64,000 bases of DNA from Candidatus Thermoplasmatota archaeon (GTDB lineage: Archaea > Thermoplasmatota > SW-10-69-26 > JACQPN01 > JAJPHT01). Below are positions 6,156 through 60,291 of the stretch, one piece after another (the first letter of the stretch is position 1; each line of letters opens with the position of its first letter). The stretch covers positions 1-64,000 of the forward strand of contig DATLGO010000098.1 in the NCBI GenBank assembly GCA_035540375.1, written 5' to 3'. Both the position numbers and the translations under genes were made by a program. The notes beneath the pieces were generated by a model, which ran no database searches, had not been told where the DNA came from, and saw only the letters and a program-made list of their open reading frames with translations.

Positions 6156-7649
6156 ATGGCTGACGACGTACGGTCCGCGGGTCGGGTTCCACGCCTGCGC
6201 CGGAGCCTCTTCGGCGTCCCCGTTTCGGGCCTCGTCGTCACGATCCTCCTCGTGGCGGCGCTCGAGATTGTGAGCCGCTTCGTGACGGGGGAGCACGTCG
6301 GCGGCATCGTGGCCGTGCTCCTTCTCGCGGTCGCCTTCTCGGCCTTCGCGGGAGAGCGGCTCGGGGGTCTCGTGAGCGCCGGTCTCGTCATCCTGTACAT
6401 GCTCGTGAGCCTCAGCTTCCGCCCGGGCCTCGACCACCTCGACGAGGCGGACATGCAGCGGCTCCTCGTCACCATCGCGACGGCGCCGACGATGGCCGTT
6501 CTCGTCGGCGGCCAACGGCGGCGGGTGCGCGTGCTCGAGGAGGAGCGGGCTCGCGAGGAGCGGGAGCGGGCCCTCCAGCGCGAGGCGCGGCTTGCGGAAG
6601 TGACGGCGCTCAAGAGCCAGCTCGAGACCATCCTCGAAGCCGCGGGCGAAGGCATCTACGGCCTCGACGCACAAAACCGGGTGACTTTCGCGAACCGCGC
6701 GGCCGCGCAGCTTCTCGGCTGCGCCCCATCCGACCTCGTCGGCCACCCGCTCGAAGCCGTCGCGGGCGAAGGGGCGACGGGCCCCCTGAACGGGCCCGTG
6801 ACGTACCGGCGCGCCGACGGCTCGACGTTTCCGGCCGAGGTGACGGCGGCCCAGATCGAGCGCGACGGGGAGCGCGTGGGATGCGTCGTCGTATTCCGGG
6901 ACATCACCGAACGGGTGCGCCTCACCAACCTCGTGACCGCGAAGGCCGCCGAACTCGAGCGTTCGAACGCGGACCTCCAGCAGTTCGCCTACGTCGCCTC
7001 CCACGATCTGCAGGAACCTCTCCGGATGGTCGCGAGCTACGTGCAGCTCATCGAGCGCCGCTACCGCGGCAAGCTCGACAAGGACGCGGACGAGTTCATC
7101 GAGTACGCGGTCGACGGAGCCCGGCGTCTCCAGGGGCTCATCAACGATCTTCTCTCTTATTCCCGCGTCGGTGGATCGAACGCCCCCTTCATGGAGGTGG
7201 ATCTCGGGGCCACCGTCGATACGGTCCGCAGGCAGCTTGCGAAGACGCTCGAGGAGAAGGGCGCGAGGCTCGTCGTCGCGACGCCCCTGCCGACCGTCCG
7301 CGCCGACCCGTCCCAGATGGTCCAGATTCTCCAGAATCTCGTGGGGAACGGCCTCAAGTTCACGGCGCCCGGTCGAGCGCCGGAGGTTTCCGTCTCGGCG
7401 GAGCGCGACGAGGGCGCGTGGCGGATCGCGGTCCGCGACAACGGCATCGGTATCGACCCCGAGTACGCGGAACGCATCTTCGTCCTGTTCCAACGGCTCC
7501 ACAGCCGCGAGACCTATCCGGGCTCCGGCATCGGCCTTGCGATCTGCAAGCGCATCGTGGAGCGCCACGGGGGGCGCATCTGGGTCGAATCCAAACCCGG
7601 CGAAGGCGCGACCTTTTTGTTCCTCCTCCCGGATCCATCAGGGGCCTGA
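6156..7649 (+). CDS. Membrane PAS-domain sensor histidine kinase
   Basis: A 497-residue kinase with ATG preceded by AAGGAG at 6145-6150. Three or four membrane helices (residues 20-117) are followed by a charged linker helix, a PAS domain (about 150-250, containing [20 protein letters not shown]), a HisKA domain with phospho-acceptor His283 in [10 protein letters not shown], and a HATPase with N-box [12 protein letters not shown]1 [15 protein letters not shown] and G2 [18 protein letters not shown]. The H-box form is that of phytochrome-like and archaeal kinases. It lies 5 bases before a response regulator gene, its likely partner. Confidence 0.93.
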
Positions 7650-7654
7650 TAGCC

Positions 7655-8092
7655 ATGGACCACGGCAAGCCGATCGAAATCCTCCTCGTGGAGGACAATC
7701 CGGGCGACGTGCGCCTCACCCGTGAGGCGCTCAAGGAGGGGAAGGTCGCGAACAACCTCCACGTCGCCGGGGACGGCGCCATGGCGCTCGAGATCCTCCA
7801 CCGCAAGGGCGCCTACGCGAACGCGCCGAGGCCCGACCTCATCCTGCTCGATCTCAACCTGCCGAAGAAGAACGGCATCGAAGTCCTCTCCGAGATCAAG
7901 GCCGATCCCGACCTGCGTCGGATACCCGTCGTCATCCTCACGACGTCGCAAGCCGAGCAGGACATCGCGAAGACCTACAGCCTCCACGCGAACTGCTACA
8001 TCACGAAGCCCGTCGATCTCAACCAGTTCATGACCGTCGTCCAGCAGATCGAATCCTTCTGGCTGAGCGTCGTCAAACTCCCCTCCTCGTGA
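7655..8092 (+). CDS. Single-domain response regulator (Rcp1-like)
   Basis: A 145-residue receiver domain without an output domain. The acidic pocket is LLVEDNPGD, the predicted phospho-acceptor is Asp66 in [11 protein letters not shown], the conserved Thr lies in VVILTTSQ and the Lys in YITKPVDL. Sequence style ([31 protein letters not shown]) matches the Rcp1 group that partners with phytochrome-type kinases. It sits between the histidine kinase and the receiver-kinase fusion and overlaps the latter by 4 bases, so all three are probably one transcription unit. Confidence 0.92.
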
Positions 8093-9438
8093 GCGGAATG
8101 ATCCGGATCCTGCTCGTCGAGGACAATCCCGGCGACGCGCGTCTCGTCCGCGCCGCGCTCGACGACGTGGCCGAAGGCGAGGCCTTCGCGCTCGAGCACG
8201 TGAAGACGCTCGGCGAGGCGATCGCGAGGCTCGAGCGCGGCCGGATCGACATCGTCCTCCTCGACCTGTCGCTGCCCGACAGCCAGGGCCTCGGAGGTCT
8301 CGCGCGCATCCAGAAGGCGGAGCCGACGGTGCCGGTCGTGATCCTCACGGGCCTCGTCGACGAATCCTCCGCGCTCGCCGCGATGCGCAGCGGCGCCCAG
8401 GACTATCTCGTGAAGGGCGCGCTCGACGGTCGGGCCCTCGCTCGTTCGGCCCGCTACGCGATCGAGCGGAAGCTCGCGTCCCTCGCGAGCCGCGAAGGCG
8501 GAGGTCTCGGCGCGCGCACGGAGATCCGCCGTCAGCTCGACATCCTCGAAGCCGAGCACAATCTGCTCATGAGCCTTCTCGGCGCGCGCGACCGGCCGGA
8601 GGCCGAGACCCGCATCGAACCCGGGGCGCTCGTCGCGGGGCGTTATCGTCTCGAGCGCCTCCTCGGGGAGGGGACCTACGGAAGCGCGTTCCTCGCGAAG
8701 GACGAATCCCTCGCGCGGCGCATCGTGCTCAAGGCCCTGCGGCCCGCCCTCGCGAACCGCGACGAGCAGGTGCGCGGATTCATGAAGGAGGCCCGTCTCG
8801 CGGCGAGCCTCGACCACCCGAACGTCGTGCGCATCCACGACTTCGGCACCGCCGGGTCCATCCCCTTCATCGTGATGGAGCACGTCGAGAAGGGCTCCCT
8901 CGCGGCGCGCCTCGGCGCCCCGATGGGGGCCGACGAGGCGACGCGCATCCTCCTCGAGGTCCTCGCCGGCCTCGCCCACATGCACGAGCGCGGCGTGCTG
9001 CACCGCGACCTCAAGCCCGCGAACATCCTCCTTGCGGCCGACGGCCGCGCGAAGATCGCGGATTTCGGCCTCGCGCTCGCGGCCGATCCCTCGGCGACGT
9101 ACGTCGACCTCGACGGCCCCGACGACCCGCGCGCGGGCACGCCCGCGTACGCTTCGCCCGAGGCCGTCACGGGCGCGCCGTTCACGCCCGCAAGCGACGT
9201 CTTCTCGGCGGGCGCGATCCTCCACGAGTGCCTCGCGGGATCGCCGTGGTTCGCGGTGGACGGGCTCGACCGCGCGGGCCTGAGGCGCGCCATCCTCGAG
9301 GCGAAGCCGCGCGCGCTCCCGAAAAGCGTGGACCCCGCCCTCGCGCGCGTCGTCGCCCGGGCGCTCGAGAAGGACCCCCGACGCCGCTTCGCGACCGCGG
9401 CGGAGATGGCGGAGGCGCTGGGACAGGGGAAGAAGTAG
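8089..9438 (+). CDS. Response regulator receiver - Ser/Thr protein kinase fusion
   Basis: A 449-residue fusion. Residues 1-125 are a receiver domain with VEDNPGD and phospho-acceptor Asp59 in [12 protein letters not shown]. Residues about 185-445 are a complete Hanks-type kinase: glycine loop [14 protein letters not shown], Lys215 in IVLKAL, Glu234, the catalytic loop [11 protein letters not shown] (Asp307), the metal-binding IADFGLAL (Asp325) and the ASPEAV segment. All catalytic residues are present, so it should be active. The GTG start overlaps the stop of the upstream regulator as GTGA. The layout suggests that phospho-relay from the histidine kinase gates a Ser/Thr kinase. Confidence 0.93.
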
Positions 9439-20929: not shown

Positions 20930-21193
20930 CCCGGACCCGGTCCCGGACCCGGACCCGGACCCGGTCCCGGCACCCGGTCCCGGAGCCCGAAGCCCGGTCC
21001 CGGTCCCGGCACCCGGTCCCGGAGCCCGAAGCCCGGTCCCAATCCCGGCACCCGGTCCCGGAGCCCGAAGCCCGGTCCCGGTCCCGGCACCCGGTCCCGG
21101 CGCCCGAAGCCCGGTCCCGGTCCCGGCACCCGACGCCCGTCGCCCGGTCCCGACGCCCGAAGCCCGGTCCCGGTCCCGGTCCCGGCACCCGGT
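20930..21193. repeat. GC-rich tandem repeat, 39-bp period
   Basis: Hexamer-like units CCCGGT, CCCGGA and CCCGGC are arranged in a higher-order 39-bp repeat: GCACCCGG recurs at 20970, 21009, 21048, 21087 and 21126, exactly 39 bases apart each time, usually followed by AGCCCGAAGCCC. The minus strand has many GGG runs separated by 3-4 bases (GGGACCGGGACCGGG), a G-quadruplex-prone pattern. It fills the divergent gap between queD and mptA. ORFs inside it are open only because 39 is a multiple of 3. Confidence 0.9.
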
Positions 21194-21242
21194 CTGAGCG
21201 CCCGGCGCGGGGTCCATATCCCCGTGTGATGCCGGGTCCAAG

Positions 21243-23835: not shown

Positions 23836-25794
23836 TCAAGGAGGCCCGGGGATCCGCAGACCTTCACGCACGTGGACGGCGGGTCCGCTCCGGAAGTAGG
23901 GAATCTCCGAAGGCGCAAGCGTGAGCTGCCCGCATCCGACGAGGTTGTCGGCGCCGTCGACCACGAGGCACTCGTCCCCCGCCCGGAGGGCCGGATCGCA
24001 CGCGAGGACGAACTTCGCGAAGGCGCTCTTCCCGTCGCGGTTGAACGGGACCGAGTCGTCGTGCACGACGACCCTGAGGCGCGGGGCGGGGAGGGCGGCG
24101 TGGAGGCGCTTCGCCCCCGCGAGCTTGAGCGTGAAGTGCCCGTCCTCGGCGCGCATCGAAAGGACGTGCTCGCCGTCCACGTGGACGGTCCGGATCTTGT
24201 CCGTGCGGCGCGACTTGCCGACCTCGGCGTTTCCATCGAGAAGCGCGAGGCCCGCGCCGGGGCCGAACTGGTGGTCGGCGACGGCGCGCACGCGGAGAAG
24301 GTCGAAGTCCGCGCTCGCGGGGCCGTCGAACCCGTCCCCCGCGGCCTCGGCTTCGACGATCGCGACGCCGTGACGCTTCGCGAACTCCGTTTCGAAGGCG
24401 GCAAGCGTGTCGAACGCCTCCCGGTCCGGGTCGCGCGGCTCGACGCTCTGCGCGAACGGATAGGCTTCGTCGAGCTCGAACGGAACGAGCCCGAACATCG
24501 AGCGCACCGCGGGGGCGCATCGCGCGAGGTCGAGGCGCGCGAGGATCGGAGCGTACGTCATGCTCGCGGGCTTGGCGCCCGGGGGCATCACGACGACCGT
24601 CCGCCCGCGCGGGTCCCAGCGCGAAAGCAGCCGCTCGCGCGCGCGGCGCGCATCGGGGCGCGCGACGCTCTCGGGCCCCGCGTAGAAGAACGCGCTGCGC
24701 TTGGAGACGGGCTCGAGCGTCTCCAGCCAATCCGCGTGGCGCGCGATGGCCTTGAGCGCGTCGAGGAGCGCGGGATGCGCGCGAGCGCGCATCTCGACGA
24801 GCTCCCAGAGGTCGCCCGCGCGGATCGCCTGCCGCACGCGGCGGACCTCCGCGAACGAGACGCGCAGGTTGTGCTCCGCGAGGAGCGCCGTGCGCTCGGC
24901 CTCTGGGGCCTTCTTGAGCTCGGCGGCCGAGTACCGGGAACAAACCGCGCACGCGCACGGAATCTCCTCGAGATCGGCGAGGTGGCGCGTGCCGTCCTCG
25001 AAGATCATGCGGCCGTCCTTCGCGTACTTCGCGTAGCTCGCGGAGTCGAAGAAGTCGCAGCCGAGGAGCGCGGCGAAGGGGAACACGAGCGGGTGGCCCG
25101 CGCCGAAAAGGTGCACAGGACGGGAGGGATCGAGGTTCATCTTCGCGGCGACGATCGCGTCGACGAGGGTCGCGTAGCGCTGCTGCTCCATGAGCGGCAC
25201 GACCCCGCCGATCGGGTGGAAGTCCGCCCCGATCGAAGCGTCGTCGCGATAGGCGCGCGCGCAGGCCGCGCGCAGGTCGGGATACACGGAGCCCTGCACG
25301 GTGCACGCGAGCGCCATCGCGTCGCCCTTGTCCGCGGTCGCCTCGCGCGCCCGGACGACGGTGCGGGCGACGTCGTCGGCGGCCTCGGCGTGCGTCCGGT
25401 CGGGCGTCGAGAAGATGTCGAGGATCGTGCCCACGTCGACGCCGATGTCGCGCTGGAACCGGACGATCTCGCGCGGGTCGATGTCGAGCCCGTCGCCGTA
25501 CACGTAGGTCTGGAACGTGCCCGAATCCGTCATGACGGGCCCGTCCCAGCCGATCACGCTCCGCACGCCCTCCGCGAGCGCCCTCTCCCGCAGCGCCTCC
25601 TTCTTGCGGATGATGTAGGAGTTCGTGATGACCATCTCGGCGCCCATCGCGCGCATGGCCGAGGCCTCGATGAGGCGGAGATTCGGATTGATGACGGGAA
25701 GGAGGGTCGGCGTGGTCACGACGCCGTGGGCCGTCTTGAAGCGGCCGAGTCGTCCGGCGCCGTCGCGCGCGACGATCTCGAAGGTGGGGCGCAC
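23836..25794 (-). CDS. tgtA: Archaeosine tRNA-guanine transglycosylase (TgtA)
   Basis: A 652-residue enzyme exchanging guanine-15 in archaeal tRNAs for preQ0. The N-terminal catalytic barrel has VMTDSGTFQTYVYGDG (active-site Asp and Ser region), GGVVPLMEQ, HLFGAGHP and the zinc-type cysteine cluster CACAVCS. Residues beyond about 350 are the archaeal C-terminal extension, ending in a PUA domain (VHVDGEHVLSMRAED through LVGCGQLTLAPSEIPYF). Start is GTG. Length is slightly above the family norm. It acts on the product of mptA, queD, queE and queC, all encoded within 20 kb. Confidence 0.95.
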   Translation of the reverse strand: MRPTFEIVARDGAGRLGRFKTAHGVVTTPTLLPVINPNLRLIEASAMRAMGAEMVITNSYIIRKKEALRERALAEGVRSVIGWDGPVMTDSGTFQTYVYGDGLDIDPREIVRFQRDIGVDVGTILDIFSTPDRTHAEAADDVARTVVRAREATADKGDAMALACTVQGSVYPDLRAACARAYRDDASIGADFHPIGGVVPLMEQQRYATLVDAIVAAKMNLDPSRPVHLFGAGHPLVFPFAALLGCDFFDSASYAKYAKDGRMIFEDGTRHLADLEEIPCACAVCSRYSAAELKKAPEAERTALLAEHNLRVSFAEVRRVRQAIRAGDLWELVEMRARAHPALLDALKAIARHADWLETLEPVSKRSAFFYAGPESVARPDARRARERLLSRWDPRGRTVVVMPPGAKPASMTYAPILARLDLARCAPAVRSMFGLVPFELDEAYPFAQSVEPRDPDREAFDTLAAFETEFAKRHGVAIVEAEAAGDGFDGPASADFDLLRVRAVADHQFGPGAGLALLDGNAEVGKSRRTDKIRTVHVDGEHVLSMRAEDGHFTLKLAGAKRLHAALPAPRLRVVVHDDSVPFNRDGKSAFAKFVLACDPALRAGDECLVVDGADNLVGCGQLTLAPSEIPYFRSGPAVHVREGLRIPGPP

Positions 25795-35062: not shown

Positions 35063-35104
35063 GCGCTGGGAACGGCGCCGCGGGAATCAGGGTTTCGGCG
35101 CGCG

Positions 35105-35396
35105 CCCGGCCCCGCTCCCGGACCCGGACCCGACGCCCGGACCCGGTCCCGACGCCCGGACCCGGACCCGACGCCCGGGCCCGGACCCGACGCCCGGGCC
35201 CGGCGCCCGAAGCCCGGTCCCGGTACCCGGTACCCGGCGCCCGACGCCCGGTCCCGGCCCCCGGCGCCCGGCGCCCGACGCCCGGTCCCGGTCCCGGCGC
35301 CCGGCGCCCGGGCCCGGTCCCGGCGCCCGACGCCCGACGCCCGGTCCCGGTCCCGGCGCCCGACGCCCGACGCCTGGTCCCGATCCCGATCCCCCG
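35105..35396. repeat. Second GC-rich CCCGGN tandem repeat tract
   Basis: About 290 bases of degenerate units (CCCGGA, CCCGGT, CGCCCGAC, CCCGGC) of the same type as the tract at 20.9-21.2 kb but less regular. Longer segments such as CCCGGTCCCGGTCCCGGCG followed by CCCGACGCCCGACG recur near 35.28 and 35.34 kb. It lies wholly in the divergent gap between nadX and queC. Long reading frames through it are by-products of the repeat. Confidence 0.88.
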
Positions 35397-45597: not shown

Positions 45598-45605
45598 ACT
45601 TAAGG
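45598..45605 (+). promoter_or_regulatory. TATA-like element before secreted-protein cluster
   Basis: ACTTAAGG lies 22-29 bases upstream of the ATG at 45627. A closely similar CCTTAAGT precedes the gene at 47932 and its truncated copy, hinting at a shared promoter type in this cluster. Confidence 0.45.
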
Positions 45606-45626: not shown

Positions 45627-45779
45627 ATGTCTCGTTCCAGGCCCACGTGTCCCGGGGATCAACGTTCTGAGCGCGGCGTCCTTCCGTTCCAGCTGGGGGG
45701 CTTGGCGCTTCTCCTGCTTCTCGCCGCAGTGTTCATTTCCCCCACGAGCGCGCGGCGCAGTCTTGCGGATCGACGATGA
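45627..45779 (+). CDS. Signal-peptide ORF, out of frame with the next gene
   Basis: A 50-residue ORF with a basic n-region (MSRSRPTCPGDQRSERGVLP), a strong hydrophobic core (LGGLALLLLLAAVFI) and SPTSA, then RRSLADRR and a stop. This is a classical export signal with nothing behind it. The stop overlaps the ATG of the following ORF (ATGA). The following frame contains, upstream of that ATG, the residues QSCGSTM, which begin a repeat module. The two ORFs should therefore be one protein joined by a -1 shift near the run of five C at 45739-45743. Confidence 0.6.
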   Translation: MSRSRPTCPGDQRSERGVLPFQLGGLALLLLLAAVFISPTSARRSLADRR

Positions 45780-47038
45780 CCCATGTGGGCGGATCCTTGC
45801 CCCCCACATATACGGGACAAACCACGATCGCCCTTTCCGCCGCGTTCCTCGACGAACCGGAGCACTGCGGCATCCAGGGCGGATACATGCTCGACAACGG
45901 CCAATTTTTCCCGACCCAGAAATGGCAGGACGGGAACAACTACGGGATCTCAGGCAGTCGTCAATTCAGCGCGGGCCACCACACCATCCACGTTCGCCTT
46001 GCCGAGAACGGCGGCGCCGTGGGCGAGCTGACGCATCACTTCTTCGTTCGCCTTTGCGGAACCGGGATGCTCGCCCCCTCGTCCATGACGCCCACGAGCG
46101 CCGCGCACGGCGTTCCAACGATCCGCGTCGTATTCAGGGACCCTGACGCTGCGTGCGGCATCGGCGCGCACCGGTTGCTCCTTGATGGCATCGAGGTTCC
46201 GGCGAAAGCCACCACGGTCGGCAAGGACTACGTGCTCACGTACACGCCCCCGGATCCCCTCCCCGATGGCGTGCACTTTGTCGAAGCCTGGGTCGAGGAG
46301 ATCTGCTGCACGACCAACACCGTGGAGGATCGCAACTCGGGGTCCACGAGCTGGTCGTTCGAGGTGAAAACATGCGGTGGCGCGCCGCTCGTCCTCGACA
46401 CGTGGGGCCCTCGCGAGTCGACGTCCCGCAGGCAGCCGACGATCCACGCCGCCTTCCACGATCGGGAAACGCCGTGTGGCGTCGCGGCGGCCACGATGCG
46501 GATCGACGACGTCGTCGTCCCTGCGACGGTGACGATCGAGGATCACGTCTACCGCGTCTCCTACATTCCGATCGAACCCCTCGCGCCAGGGCCCCATCGC
46601 GTCTCGGTCCGGGTGACGGAAACGTGCTGCGCTCCCGCCAACGTCCCGAACGAGGCCGTGCACGCGTGGACCTTCACGGTAAGCCCCTCCGGACCGGAGG
46701 GTGAACGCAGCCTCGGCAGGACGACCCTGAACGTCACGACGCCCGAGCGCGTCGAGGACCAAGGGTGTCATGCGGGCGTGTGCATCGAGGAATGGGTCGT
46801 ACCCGTGCGCCTCGCGGCGCGGGCGGAGGTCGGCCCGGCGTGGGTCCACTACAACCTGGACCCGGACGATCGCACGCCGATCGGGCCGCTTTCGATCCCG
46901 GGGACCCCGATCAGCGTGTGCAACCAAGGCGTCTGCGACGTCCCAATCCCCCAGCTGACCGTCTGGACCCTGTTTCGGGGACGGGTCGAGGTGGACGGCT
47001 CACCGATCCACGACACGGGCGACCTGACCCTCCCCTGA
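45776..47038 (+). CDS. Secreted Ig-like repeat protein (signal peptide in other frame)
   Basis: The ORF from 45776 encodes 420 residues with at least three tandem beta-sandwich modules of about 100 residues. Each opens with CG and carries a second Cys about 35-40 residues later: CGTGMLAP...DPDAACGIG, CGGAPLVL...RETPCGVAA, and a first module whose CG lies just upstream of this ATG (CGSTMTHVGG...EPEHCGIQ). Paired cysteines and EICCTTN / ETCCAPA phrases indicate extracellular disulfides. Without the upstream signal peptide the product could not be exported, so a frameshift (real or assembly error) is likely. Function unknown. Confidence 0.65.
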   Translation: MTHVGGSLPPTYTGQTTIALSAAFLDEPEHCGIQGGYMLDNGQFFPTQKWQDGNNYGISGSRQFSAGHHTIHVRLAENGGAVGELTHHFFVRLCGTGMLAPSSMTPTSAAHGVPTIRVVFRDPDAACGIGAHRLLLDGIEVPAKATTVGKDYVLTYTPPDPLPDGVHFVEAWVEEICCTTNTVEDRNSGSTSWSFEVKTCGGAPLVLDTWGPRESTSRRQPTIHAAFHDRETPCGVAAATMRIDDVVVPATVTIEDHVYRVSYIPIEPLAPGPHRVSVRVTETCCAPANVPNEAVHAWTFTVSPSGPEGERSLGRTTLNVTTPERVEDQGCHAGVCIEEWVVPVRLAARAEVGPAWVHYNLDPDDRTPIGPLSIPGTPISVCNQGVCDVPIPQLTVWTLFRGRVEVDGSPIHDTGDLTLP

Positions 47039-47096
47039 GCTTGACGTTCATCAACCCAGAAAACGAGCGAATCAATTCCAAGGAGACGAGAACACC

Positions 47097-47828
47097 ATGA
47101 AACCAATCGTGCAACGTGCCATGACGACCTTCGCGATCGCGGCCTTCGCGGCCTCCGGACTCCTCGCGCCTGCCGGCGCGAGCGCGCCGGGCGGCTGCGA
47201 CGGAGCCGTGGAACAGTTGAAAACAACGCTTGAGGACTCGCCCGTCGGCGGCGCCATGCCGCCCGCGGTCGCGGCCGCGCTCGCCGAGGTCGCGGAGGCG
47301 TGCGATCCACAGCCTGGGACGAATGATTGTTGCTTCGAGCCGGCGCCGCTCCCCGAGGGGGTCTTCCAGGAGTGGTGGCTCGAGGATCCGCCGGCGCTCA
47401 TGACGTCGGCGACCTCGGCGGTGTGTAGGCCGAGCAGGTATGAGAGGGAGCCTGGGACGGAGCTGAAGGTCATCGTTGCAATCGACGATTACGCGCCGTA
47501 CACGTACGAGGAGGTTGCGTTCTCTTCATACGTGGACTTCAAGCCAACGCGCCCGTCGTTCACGACCGAGTTCTACGCGATGGCCGACACGTTCGGCATG
47601 CTCGCGCGCAACGTCCGCGACGACTCCCTCGTGCGCGGCTACATCTACATCAACACGGTGGATGCGACCGGTTACGGTCCCGTCGCCCTCCCCGCGACGT
47701 CGGCCGACGCCAAGGCCTGGTGCAAGAAGGAGAACACGGACGTTTGCGGCGGCTCTGGCACGGCGGGCTACGAAGCGTCGCGCCTCAAGGTGCTCGCGAT
47801 CAGCCAGTTCGACCGGTGCAACCGCTGA
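47097..47828 (+). CDS. Secreted cysteine-containing protein
   Basis: A 243-residue exported protein. AAGGAG at 47080-47085 lies 11 bases before the ATG. The signal peptide is residues 1-31 (TTFAIAAFAASGLLAPAGAS). The mature protein has eight cysteines, including ACDPQPGTNDCCFEP and WCKKENTDVCGGSG, and a beta-rich C-terminal half. The last 49 codons are duplicated about 1.3 kb downstream as a remnant. I do not recognise the family. Likely surface or secreted, possibly interacting with the neighbouring Cys-containing proteins. Confidence 0.7.
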   Translation: MKPIVQRAMTTFAIAAFAASGLLAPAGASAPGGCDGAVEQLKTTLEDSPVGGAMPPAVAAALAEVAEACDPQPGTNDCCFEPAPLPEGVFQEWWLEDPPALMTSATSAVCRPSRYEREPGTELKVIVAIDDYAPYTYEEVAFSSYVDFKPTRPSFTTEFYAMADTFGMLARNVRDDSLVRGYIYINTVDATGYGPVALPATSADAKAWCKKENTDVCGGSGTAGYEASRLKVLAISQFDRCNR

Positions 47829-47837
47829 GCGTCGGAC

Positions 47838-47855
47838 GGGGGCGCCCTCGCCCCC
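47838..47855. terminator. GC-rich hairpin after secreted-protein gene
   Basis: GGGGGCG and CGCCCCC form a perfect 7-bp stem with a 4-base loop, 10 bases after the stop at 47828. In copy B (49139-49159) the stem is unchanged while the loop is 7 bases and different, so the stem seems to be conserved. There is no clear T-run, so termination is only one possibility. Confidence 0.45.
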
Positions 47856-47886
47856 GCCCGCGTTTCACAAGAATCGTCGAAGGTGA

Positions 47887-47894
47887 CCTTAAGT
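47887..47894 (+). promoter_or_regulatory. TATA-like element for the 47932 gene
   Basis: CCTTAAGT lies 38-45 bases upstream of the ATG at 47932. The identical element occurs in the duplicated copy at 49191-49198. Confidence 0.4.
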
Positions 47895-47931
47895 GATGCC
47901 AGACCCACGCCCAAGCCGGAGGCGCGACCCC

Positions 47932-48903
47932 ATGAACCCCCGCCGACCCTTCCTTCTCGCCCCGCTCGCCGTCGTCCTGACGCTCATGACCACGCTCCCG
48001 GGCCTCACCGCGGGTACGAGCGAAGAATACCCGGATTACACCGTGCACTTCCAACTCGCGGGGCTCGAACCTGAAGGCGCTGTCGTCCTCCACGTCCAAA
48101 ACCCGGAGGGCCTGGCCTTCGCAAGCCGCACGCAACTCGTGAGCGATTCCAGTCATCATAATCCGTTTTATCGGACGACAATCTTTCCCGATGGCAGCGG
48201 ATCACAATATTACTACTGGGGCAATTCGGGGTCAAACTGGGGTGTAGGGAGGGGAGTCGTGTACCTGGGGCTCAAGGATTCGCGGGCGGAGGTTTCCGGC
48301 CTTCCGACTCGGCGTATCGAACATTATCGAAGCGAGGAGTATGAGTGGCATCATCAGGAAGCCTGGATGACGTTCTATTGGAAGAACCAGACCGGCCCAT
48401 GGTGGTTCAATTCCTCATGGTTGCCGGGAACAACCATCCGCGAAGTGGCTCGCGGAATCGCCGAAGCTTACGAATTGAAGGACTTCGAGCACGGTGCACG
48501 GGCGGGAGTTCCTGCTGCAGCGCGCGTCCACGTCCTCGACGGGCTCACCATCGACCCAGACGGCGGGCAGGTCCTGGCGTCGATCAGCATCACTCAAACG
48601 GACGCTTGGGGCTTCGGCCATTTCACGGTCGAGCGCGATGACGGTTTTCACAGGCGTCTCAATTTCGTCGGCGTTCACGATGTCGTTCACGAGCTTGAGA
48701 ACGATCCGCTCAACAACTGTATCTGCTACAAGGATGAGGAGTGGATTTTCACGAGCACACTACTCCATCGCCTACGCCTGGATTACGTGGGGGATGGTAG
48801 ATCGACGACCATTTTCGTGGTTCTCGCGAAATTCCATGAGACCGTTCTTCCGAACGAGCTCTGGCGGGAGCGAAACAAGCGGGAGCCGGGGACGTCCTTT
48901 TGA
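47932..48903 (+). CDS. Secreted hypothetical protein of low-GC composition
   Basis: A protein of 323 residues from ATG 47932 (MNPRRPFLLAPLAVVLTLMT, signal peptide to about residue 28). The first part has ordinary GC-rich codons. From about residue 65 the DNA becomes clearly more A/T-rich, and the protein rich in Trp, Tyr, His and Asn (SGSQYYYWGNSGSNWGVG, EYEWHHQEAWMTFYWKN), then ICYKDEEWIFTSTLL. The composition change suggests that a foreign domain was joined to a native signal peptide. An in-frame ATG at 47893 or 47896 is possible. No family recognised. Confidence 0.6.
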   Translation: MNPRRPFLLAPLAVVLTLMTTLPGLTAGTSEEYPDYTVHFQLAGLEPEGAVVLHVQNPEGLAFASRTQLVSDSSHHNPFYRTTIFPDGSGSQYYYWGNSGSNWGVGRGVVYLGLKDSRAEVSGLPTRRIEHYRSEEYEWHHQEAWMTFYWKNQTGPWWFNSSWLPGTTIREVARGIAEAYELKDFEHGARAGVPAAARVHVLDGLTIDPDGGQVLASISITQTDAWGFGHFTVERDDGFHRRLNFVGVHDVVHELENDPLNNCICYKDEEWIFTSTLLHRLRLDYVGDGRSTTIFVVLAKFHETVLPNELWRERNKREPGTSF

Positions 48904-48980
48904 CAAGCGCCCGAAAAACGCCGCCGCTCCCCACCGCGCGCCTTCGGACGCCTCACGCCTGTTGTCGCGAGCGCGCGGAC

Positions 48981-49129
48981 GCGTGGCCCTGCCCGCGACG
49001 TCGGCTGATGCGAAGGCCTGGTGCAAGAAGGAGAACACGGACGTTTGCGGCGGTTGGGGCACCGCGGGCTACGAAGCCTCGCGCATCAAGGTGCTCGCGA
49101 TCGGCCAATTCGACCGGTGCAACCCCTGA
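48981..49129 (+). pseudogene. 3' remnant of a copy of the 47097 gene
   Basis: The reading VALPATSADAKAWCKKENTD then VCGGWGTAGYEASRIKVLAI and GQFDRCNP repeats the last 49 residues of the secreted protein at 47097-47828 with few changes, but no start, signal peptide or N-terminal part precedes it. The frame upstream reads into arginine-rich shadow sequence. It is a duplication by-product. Confidence 0.8.
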
Positions 49130-49138
49130 GAATCGGAC

Positions 49139-49159
49139 GGGGGCGCCGAGGACGCCCCC
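49139..49159. terminator. GC-rich hairpin in duplicated copy
   Basis: GGGGGCG (49139-49145) and CGCCCCC (49153-49159) with loop CCGAGGA. The stem matches the copy A hairpin while the loop differs in length and sequence. Confidence 0.4.
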
Positions 49160-49235
49160 GCCCGCGTTTCACAAGAATCGTCGAAGGTGACCTTAAGTGA
49201 TGCCAGACCCACGCCCAAGCCGGAGGCGCGACACC

Positions 49236-49427
49236 ATGAATCCCCGCCGACCCTTCCTTCTCGCCGCGCTCGCCGTCGTCCTGACGCTCATGACCACGCT
49301 CCCGGGCCTCACCGCGGGCGCGAGCGAAGAATGCCCGGATTACACGGTGGACTATTGTTGCGCGCGCCTCGAAACCGACGCGTCGCGGGCCCGGGCCAGA
49401 CCGCTCGGAAACCCGTCCCCTTCATGA
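49236..49427 (+). pseudogene. 5' remnant of a copy of the 47932 gene
   Basis: It starts MNPRRPFLLAALAVVLTLMT with the same signal peptide as the 47932 gene, continues to TAGASEECPDYTVDYCC, then runs into unrelated Arg-rich sequence and stops at 49427. The stop overlaps the ATG of the next gene by 4 bases. A truncated copy; it might still make a 63-residue exported peptide. Confidence 0.7.
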
Positions 49428-58189: not shown

Positions 58190-59113
58190 GTGGAGCCGGC
58201 CGTCGTCGCCCGAGGACTCGCGAAGCGCTTCGGCGCCCACGAGGCCGTGAAGAACGTCGATTTCGACATTCCCGCGGGAAGCACGTTCGCGTTCCTCGGC
58301 CCGAACGGCGCGGGGAAAACCTCCACCATGCGGATGATCTACGGCCTGTCGCCCGTCTCCGCGGGGACGCTCACGGTCCTCGGGCACGACGTTGCGACCG
58401 AATCGCGGGCCCTCAAGCGTCTCATCGGGGTCGTGCCCCAGGAAGCGAACCTCGACATGGACATGACGGCGCTCGACAACGTCGTGACGTTCGCGCGCTT
58501 CTTCGACATCACGGGCGCGCCGGCGAGGTCCCGCGCGAAGGAGCTTCTCGCGTCCGTCCAGCTCGAGGAGAAGGCGGACGCGCGCGTCGCGACGCTCTCC
58601 GGGGGCATGAAGCGGCGGCTCCTCATCGCGCGCGCCCTCGTGAACGACCCCGCGCTCCTCGTGCTCGACGAGCCCACGACGGGCCTCGATCCGCAGTCGC
58701 GCGCGCTCCTCTGGGAGCGCATCCGCGACATGCGCCGGGCCGGAAAGACGGTCATCCTCACGACGCACTACATGGAGGAGGCCGAGCGGCTCTCGGACGA
58801 GCTCGTCCTCATGGACGGCGGCCGCATCATCGAGCGCGGGACGCCCCGCGAGCTTGTGCTCCGCCACATCGGTCGGGAGGTGCTCGAGCTCGAGCTCCCC
58901 CGGGCCGAGCAGGAGCGCGCGCTCAAGGCGCTCGCGGACCGGGCGCGAGGCTCCGACCGGTCGCGCGACTTCGTCCTCTTCCACACGGACGACGCCGAGG
59001 CGCTTTTGCGCGAGGCCGAATCCGAGGGTCTTGAACCCGCCTCCGCCGTGCTGCGCCGCGCGAGCCTGGAGGACGTCTTCCTGAAGCTCACCGGCAGGAC
59101 GCTCCTTGAGTAA
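58190..59113 (+). CDS. ABC transporter ATP-binding protein (DrrA-like)
   Basis: A protein of 307 residues from GTG 58190 (VEPAVVARGLAKRFGAHEAV). Walker A GPNGAGKTSTM, Q-loop VVPQEANLDMDMTALDNV, signature LSGGMKRRLLIARAL, Walker B LLVLDEPTTGLDPQSRALLW and H-loop ILTTHYMEEAERL. The C-terminal extension (residues about 215-307) with a small alpha/beta domain is usual for DrrA/CcmA-like exporters. Its permease partner starts at 59515, with a basic-protein gene between them. A weak TATA-like element lies about 30 bases upstream. Confidence 0.92.
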   Translation: MEPAVVARGLAKRFGAHEAVKNVDFDIPAGSTFAFLGPNGAGKTSTMRMIYGLSPVSAGTLTVLGHDVATESRALKRLIGVVPQEANLDMDMTALDNVVTFARFFDITGAPARSRAKELLASVQLEEKADARVATLSGGMKRRLLIARALVNDPALLVLDEPTTGLDPQSRALLWERIRDMRRAGKTVILTTHYMEEAERLSDELVLMDGGRIIERGTPRELVLRHIGREVLELELPRAEQERALKALADRARGSDRSRDFVLFHTDDAEALLREAESEGLEPASAVLRRASLEDVFLKLTGRTLLE

Positions 59114-59144
59114 GGCTAAATCGTCCCTCGGGGATGACGGACGC

Positions 59145-59474
59145 ATGGCGGAGACCCCGATGGACCAGGCGATGGAGCGCGCGAAGGCGGCGGCGGACGA
59201 GGCGGCGCGGATGGCCAAGCAGGCCGCCGCGGACGCGAAGGCCAAGGCGGCCGAGGCGAAGCAGACGGCCGTCGGCGCCGCCGAATCGCTCCTCGACAAG
59301 GTCGCGGCCACCGCGAAGGCCGTCGGGAACAAGGCCCGCGCCGCGAAGCGCCGCGTCACGAAGGCGAAGAAGCCCGCGAAGAAGGCCCCCAAGCGCGCGA
59401 AGGCCTCGAAGGCGAAGCGCGCGGCGCCGCGCAAGGCCGCGAAGAAGAAGGCGAAGAAGGCCCGCCGCCGCTGA
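59145..59474 (+). CDS. Lys/Ala-rich histone H1-like protein
   Basis: A protein of 109 residues from ATG 59145, following GCTAAATC at about 30 bases. The first 55 residues form an acidic/basic amphipathic helix (MDQAMERAKAAADEAARMAK). The last 50 are a highly basic tail made of KAKKPAKKAPKRAKASKAKR type repeats ending KKAKKARRR. Such tails resemble eukaryotic H1 and bacterial Hc1/AlgP-like proteins and should bind DNA non-specifically. An in-frame TTG at 59106 is possible. It sits between ABC ATPase and permease genes. Confidence 0.7.
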   Translation: MAETPMDQAMERAKAAADEAARMAKQAAADAKAKAAEAKQTAVGAAESLLDKVAATAKAVGNKARAAKRRVTKAKKPAKKAPKRAKASKAKRAAPRKAAKKKAKKARRR

Positions 59475-59514
59475 AGCCGAAGATTACTTCCCCGGCGCGG
59501 CCGCTCGCGCGGCC

Positions 59515-60291
59515 ATGGTCGCGCTCCCGTTCTCGCCGAGGCTCGCCTTCCGCGTGTGGCAGCGCGAGGCGACGCTCTACCGGAAGCTCTGGGCCTCCAC
59601 CATCCTCTCGAATCTCTTCGACCCGTTCATCTACCTCGTCGCGATGGGCTACGGCCTCGGCGCGTATCTGACCGAGGGCTTCGAAGGCGTCTCCTATCTG
59701 CAATGGATCGCGCCGGGCCTCGTCGCGTCGAGCGTCATGATGGCCGCCGCGTACGAGGTCGCGTGGAACGCGTACGTGCGCATCCACATCGAGCGGACGT
59801 ACGAGGCGATGATGACCACGCCCGCCGCCCTCGAGGACGTCGTCGTGGGCGAGATCGCCTGGGCGACGACGCGCGCCGTCATCTACGCGGCCGTCATGCT
59901 TGTCGTCCTCCTCGCGCTCGGCCTCGTGCGCTCGCCCTGGGCGCTCCTCGTGCCCGCGATCGCGGCGCTCGGCGGCGCGACGTTCGCGGTCCTCGGGCTC
60001 ACGTACACCGTCCTCGTGAAGCACATGGAGCAGCTCACCTTCTACTTCACCCTCGTCGTGACGCCGATGTTCCTCTTCTCCGGCGTCTTCTTCCCGCTCG
60101 ACGAGCTGCCGGCCTTCGCGCAGGTCGTCGCCCAGTTCTCGCCGCTCTACCATCTCGTCGAGGTCGTGCGGGCCCTCGTGCTCGGCACCGTGCACGCGGG
60201 GCTCTTTGTCCACACGGCCGTGCTCGCCGGTGTCGTCGTCGCGTTGGGATTCCTGCCCGTGAGGCTTCTGCGGCGGAAGCTCCTGATCTGA
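59515..60291 (+). CDS. ABC-2 type transporter permease (NodJ/DrrB-like)
   Basis: A protein of 258 residues from ATG 59515, with six membrane helices. Typical family stretches are WASTILSNLFDPFIYLVAMG, YLQWIAPGLVASSVMMAAAY, RTYEAMMTTPAALEDVVVGE, LGGATFAVLGLTYTVLVKHM, TPMFLFSGVFFPLDELPAFA and FSPLYHLVEVVRALVLG. This is a NodJ-type permease, working with the ATPase encoded at 58190. The pair probably exports a drug-like or lipid-linked compound; the substrate is not inferable. Confidence 0.9.
   Translation: MVALPFSPRLAFRVWQREATLYRKLWASTILSNLFDPFIYLVAMGYGLGAYLTEGFEGVSYLQWIAPGLVASSVMMAAAYEVAWNAYVRIHIERTYEAMMTTPAALEDVVVGEIAWATTRAVIYAAVMLVVLLALGLVRSPWALLVPAIAALGGATFAVLGLTYTVLVKHMEQLTFYFTLVVTPMFLFSGVFFPLDELPAFAQVVAQFSPLYHLVEVVRALVLGTVHAGLFVHTAVLAGVVVALGFLPVRLLRRKLLI

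Follow-up and report, generated by a model that had tools for sequence, protein, structure and literature searches.

Two overlapping open reading frames on the forward strand, ORF1 (45627–45779) and ORF2 (45776–47038), were analyzed together with the genes that follow them in the window, which is the whole stretch of 64,000 nucleotides under analysis. ORF1 encodes a peptide of 50 amino acids (MSRSRPTCPGDQRSERGVLPFQLGGLALLLLLAAVFISPTSARRSLADRR), the signal-peptide frame of gene A, and ends with the stop codon TGA at 45777–45779. Its hydrophobic core (LGGLALLLLLAAVFI; 45693–45737, forward strand) was read directly and ranked by hydropathy. Among 811 ATG-started stretches in the window, only 11 reach the value of this core, and these read as membrane or signal segments. 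About 25 nt upstream of the ORF1 ATG, a TATA-box-like TTAAGG can be read directly on the same strand (45600–45605), and no Shine–Dalgarno-like motif was found upstream of 45627. ORF1 looks leaderless, in the manner of an archaeal start, and the TTAAGG may serve as its promoter. A scan for sigma-70 promoters and terminators gave no match, as expected for an archaeon.

ORF2 encodes the body of gene A, 420 amino acids in the −1 frame relative to ORF1, and the two frames overlap by the ATGA at 45776–45779. All 420 codons are open, with typical codon usage and a GC3 of 0.84. In the 5′ direction, the ORF2 frame stays open to 45671 (ARRPSVPAGGLGASPASRRSVHFPHERAAQSCGSTM), and this upstream part contains no ATG, GTG, or TTG and no hydrophobic stretch; leading into the ATG, it reads QSCGSTM, with its Cys at module spacing. 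The first-pass annotation had described ORF1 as an export signal of 50 residues, ORF2 as a body devoid of a signal, and the −1 frame as meaningful 5′ of the ORF2 ATG. Our results agree with this description, and a re-reading of the sequence upheld its coordinates, the −1 relationship, the ATGA overlap, and a run of five C at 45739–45743. A second signal peptide in the ORF2 frame was looked for and is not present.

Modular architecture and predicted fold

The body is composed of repeated cysteine modules, all on the forward strand. Module 1 (45764–46048) opens with a Cys-Gly pair (TGC GGA, 45764–45769) that lies in the −1 frame, 5′ of the ORF2 ATG, and that was located by spacing, a leave-one-out HMM, and a profile search. 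Modules 2 (46055–46372) and 3 (46373–46687), recognized by their cysteine pattern and by profile search, follow the order CG...CG...CC, and module 1 is without the CC pair that both of them have. The C-terminal part (46688–47035) contains two Cys pairs and is common to a paralogue on contig C21 of the same genome.

When module 1 was modeled with AlphaFold, including the residues upstream of the ATG, an eight-stranded beta-sandwich with a pLDDT of 88 was obtained; the alignment behind this model consisted of three window sequences, and the model is no proof that the upstream residues are translated. Its structural neighbors are Ig/FN3-like (TM about 0.6–0.7, best E 0.001), and the comparison with solved structures gave no match with an E below 0.001. 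The Pfam cut-offs were likewise missed, at 18.2 of 27 bits for Big_13 and 19.6 of 26.9 bits for Filamin, and the full-length single-sequence model reached a pLDDT of only 43. Module 1 is described here as a predicted Ig-like beta-sandwich. The gene A product resembles bacterial and archaeal secreted repeat proteins with Ig-like domains (Big_13, Filamin; SiiE, 2yn3/2yn5) in its predicted beta-sandwich, its tandem modules, and its export. However, its modules fall below the Pfam cut-offs and, unlike those domains, carry conserved CG...CG...CC cysteines.

Evidence joining the two reading frames

One indication that both frames belong to one protein comes from the paralogue on contig C21 (L033, 5854–6687), in which a signal runs directly into a CG module within a single open reading frame (MRFLVATALLLVTAILPTAAAAPDCGLAPF). 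The linker from the signal to the first Cys would measure 9 residues in gene A and measures 8 in the paralogue. Cysteine spacing points in the same direction. The first Cys of module 1 is the codon at 45764–45766, four codons 5′ of the ORF2 ATG, and the distance between the first and second cysteines is 34 in module 1, 33 in module 2, 34 in module 3, and 33 in the paralogue; a Cys-Gly at either spacing would be met by chance in about 0.4% of cases. When module 1 was left out of the profile, position 1 of the profile still fell exactly on this Cys, although the score exceeded that of the ATG-started version by only about 1 bit. Up to about 45738, codon scores mildly favor frame 0, and from 45740 they favor the −1 frame; for 45740–45775, they amount to −1.9 nats in the −1 frame against −6.0, a small gap over 12 codons. 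Given the intact paralogue, the cysteine spacing with the leave-one-out profile, and the codon scores, the reading of ORF1 and ORF2 as two halves of one secreted-protein gene, gene A, is well supported at the sequence level.

The frames would have to meet on the forward strand between 45738 and 45763, after the hydrophobic core and before the first module Cys, an interval that holds the C run. The first-pass annotation had likewise placed the junction after the signal core and ahead of the first Cys-Gly, and both the contiguous paralogue and the leave-one-out profile support it. A homologue whose first module lacked the CG start would speak against this placement; the module of the paralogue opens with CG. 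In the window, which has 70% GC, about 3% of the 30-nt stretches contain a run of at least five C, and the gene A region alone has five such runs. With these frequencies, the C run by itself points only weakly to the exact position of the change.

Gene neighborhood, second cassette, and genomic setting

Gene A is the first of a cassette of three secreted-protein genes, A-B-C. Gene B (47097–47828, forward strand) has an intact signal and an AAGGAG motif, and gene C (47893–48903, forward strand) starts at GTG 47893 or ATG 47932. A diverged second cassette is found on contig C21 (L033, 5854–8438), in which the gene A paralogue is followed by homologues of gene B (6702–7445, 25% identity) and gene C (7488–8438, 26% identity, E 4e-30). 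Overall, the two copies (45627–48903 of the window and 5854–8438 of L033) share 25–31% identity and are without Pfam or NCBIfam assignment. Directly downstream of gene C, a decayed and truncated partial duplicate (48976–49353, forward strand) comprises, in this order, the 3′ end of a further B and the initial part of a further C. This tandem partial duplication is 90–96% identical between 47675–48049 and 48976–49353. Of the 51 codons compared in the duplicated B part, 15 differ, 10 of them synonymously and 5 nonsynonymously, suggesting selection on the B genes since the duplication.

No orthologue of gene A was found in 97 related genomes, GTDB contigs, IMG/VR, phages, or plasmids; IMG/VR was searched both with the gene A protein and with the module profile. 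The matches of the module profile in relatives are Ig-like domains of long proteins and not orthologues. In a genome of the same family, other secreted proteins lie downstream of etfA, and synteny was therefore of no help. A locus on contig C12 of a same-family genome, G001 (L169, 7894–9707), contains two adjoining secreted-protein genes, the second of which weakly resembles gene C (profile E 2.6e-4; BLASTP E 0.003). For the first, no similarity to gene B could be detected, nor was a gene A found. Gene A thus appears to be lineage-restricted, and the duplicated cassette has so far been found only in this archaeon.

The window belongs to contig C98 (105,529 bases) of a genome of 3.13 Mb that comprises 110 contigs, is 97% complete, and has a GC content of 70%. 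Contigs spanning 1.7–105 kb would fit a short-read assembly. The archaeal relatives of etfA are from Euryarchaeota/Thermoplasmata metagenome genomes, with no named etfA match above 52% identity, and the source of the window is probably an uncultured Thermoplasmatota-like archaeon. Elsewhere in the window, an archaeal tRNA-guanine transglycosylase, TgtA, is encoded at 23836–25794. Two GC-rich tandem repeat arrays with 39-nt and 33-nt periods (20930–21194 and 35104–35388) stand at the start of a nadC-like and a queC-like gene, respectively, and the unit types are alike at the two sites. At 59113–59472, codon scores favor another frame over the Arg-rich N-terminus of the ORF at 59134–60291; this N-terminus is probably not coding, and the permease gene likely starts later.

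Discussion

Very probably, gene A is a single gene for a secreted protein that an indel of one base has interrupted. The gain or loss of one base in the interval of about 45738–45763, with the five-C run as a quite possible site, would leave signal and body in different frames. With the gene as written, a ribosome would make the 50-residue peptide and stop, and the body would not be exported. Whether the indel belongs to the organism or to its assembly was addressed by a frame-integrity test, in which about 1.0 Mb of this genome was compared with 0.78 Mb of a same-family genome. Among 77 conserved genes (26,184 aligned amino acids, about 79 kb), no frame break was found, giving an upper limit of roughly 3 breaks per 79 kb (95%), and the window itself, when scanned coarsely for coding frames, revealed no other clear break. 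The absence of breaks in about 79 kb leans toward a real indel, with an error in gene A possible but not expected. We estimate a slightly better than even chance that the frame change is a real mutation in the organism, and we regard an assembly or base-calling error, the second choice, as a rather less likely source.

Gene A would then probably be a young pseudogene, presumably inactive. The fully open body of 420 codons and its typical codon usage count against long-standing loss, and any inactivation must be recent. Duplication and decay immediately next door fit such a recent loss. According to Antonov et al. (2013; PMC3711429), unclustered singleton frameshifts should for the most part be gene overlaps, indel mutations, or sequencing errors. 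Like the GeneTack singletons of that survey, gene A has a single change of frame and an intact homologue elsewhere, and the searches brought up no conserved cluster of homologues split alike. However, the one intact homologue of gene A, a diverged paralogue, comes from this genome and is not an orthologue from another species. Of the three mechanisms offered by the first-pass annotation, the one-base indel remains; the coupling of two polypeptides is disfavored, and a programmed −1 shift is unsupported.

That ORF1 and ORF2 yield two separate polypeptides, their translation coupled through the exact ATGA overlap at 45776–45779, is improbable. Such an overlap is cheap, as an A stands before 26% of the TGA triplets found on this strand in the window, and no Shine–Dalgarno-like motif precedes the ATG at 45776, whereas gene B has its AAGGAG. 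Coupling is disfavored because the second product would come without a signal and with a conserved Cys pair left incomplete, since the first Cys of module 1 lies outside it, while the paralogue carries this Cys and a signal in one chain.

A programmed −1 frameshift, in which the Pro-tRNA on CCC would move back by one base, with a fraction of ribosomes producing the exported repeat protein and the others the short signal peptide, is more doubtful still. The direction of the frame change and the geometry of the site are suitable, as CCC at 45741–45743 can re-pair with CCC at 45740–45742, and a predicted stem starts at 45750, 6 nt after the C run (z about −1.8 to −1.9), where a stimulatory structure would be looked for 5–9 nt downstream. 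Nevertheless, that stem is matched by about 8% of 52 control windows. Canonical −1 slippage needs a heptamer of the form X-XXY-YYZ, in which Y is usually A or U (PMC8211752). The zero-frame codons here are TCC CCC ACG, and the sequence T-TCC-CCC-A (45737–45744) does not have that form and would pair through C rather than A or U, so that slippage could proceed only if one Pro-tRNA re-paired in the P site. Moreover, the paralogue is made without any shift, and the genomes and databases searched yielded no orthologue that could show a conserved split. Precedent does exist in the proven fucA1 of Saccharolobus solfataricus, the one reported cellular case in archaea known as of 2021 (PMC8211752). 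Gene A shares with fucA1 its archaeal origin, the 0/−1 arrangement of the ORFs, a homopolymer in the overlap, and, as predicted for gene A, a structure downstream. In fucA1, however, the slippery heptamer includes an A stretch and the shift is proven by experiment (PMC8211752); in gene A, a C run without a heptamer would have to serve. It is even less likely that such a shift sets how much of an archaeal secreted protein is exported. If programmed shifting did occur, gene A would be a rare second cellular case in archaea, and one without a heptamer of the A/U type.

Phase variation usually targets genes for surface or secreted proteins and normally needs a longer tract. On/off switching of gene A through slippage at the C run within the population is the least likely of these readings: the junction interval does contain a homopolymer, but five bases are short beside the 7-nt minimum for homopolymers of the GeneTack survey (PMC3711429), and five such runs occur in the gene region alone.

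Nothing at this locus requires a new mechanism, and the ordinary explanations, a mutation or an error of one base, lead. The interruption of one gene by an indel has its main consequence in annotation: automatic gene callers would report a peptide of 50 amino acids and a cytoplasmic protein, and would miss an exported Ig-like repeat protein of this archaeon.
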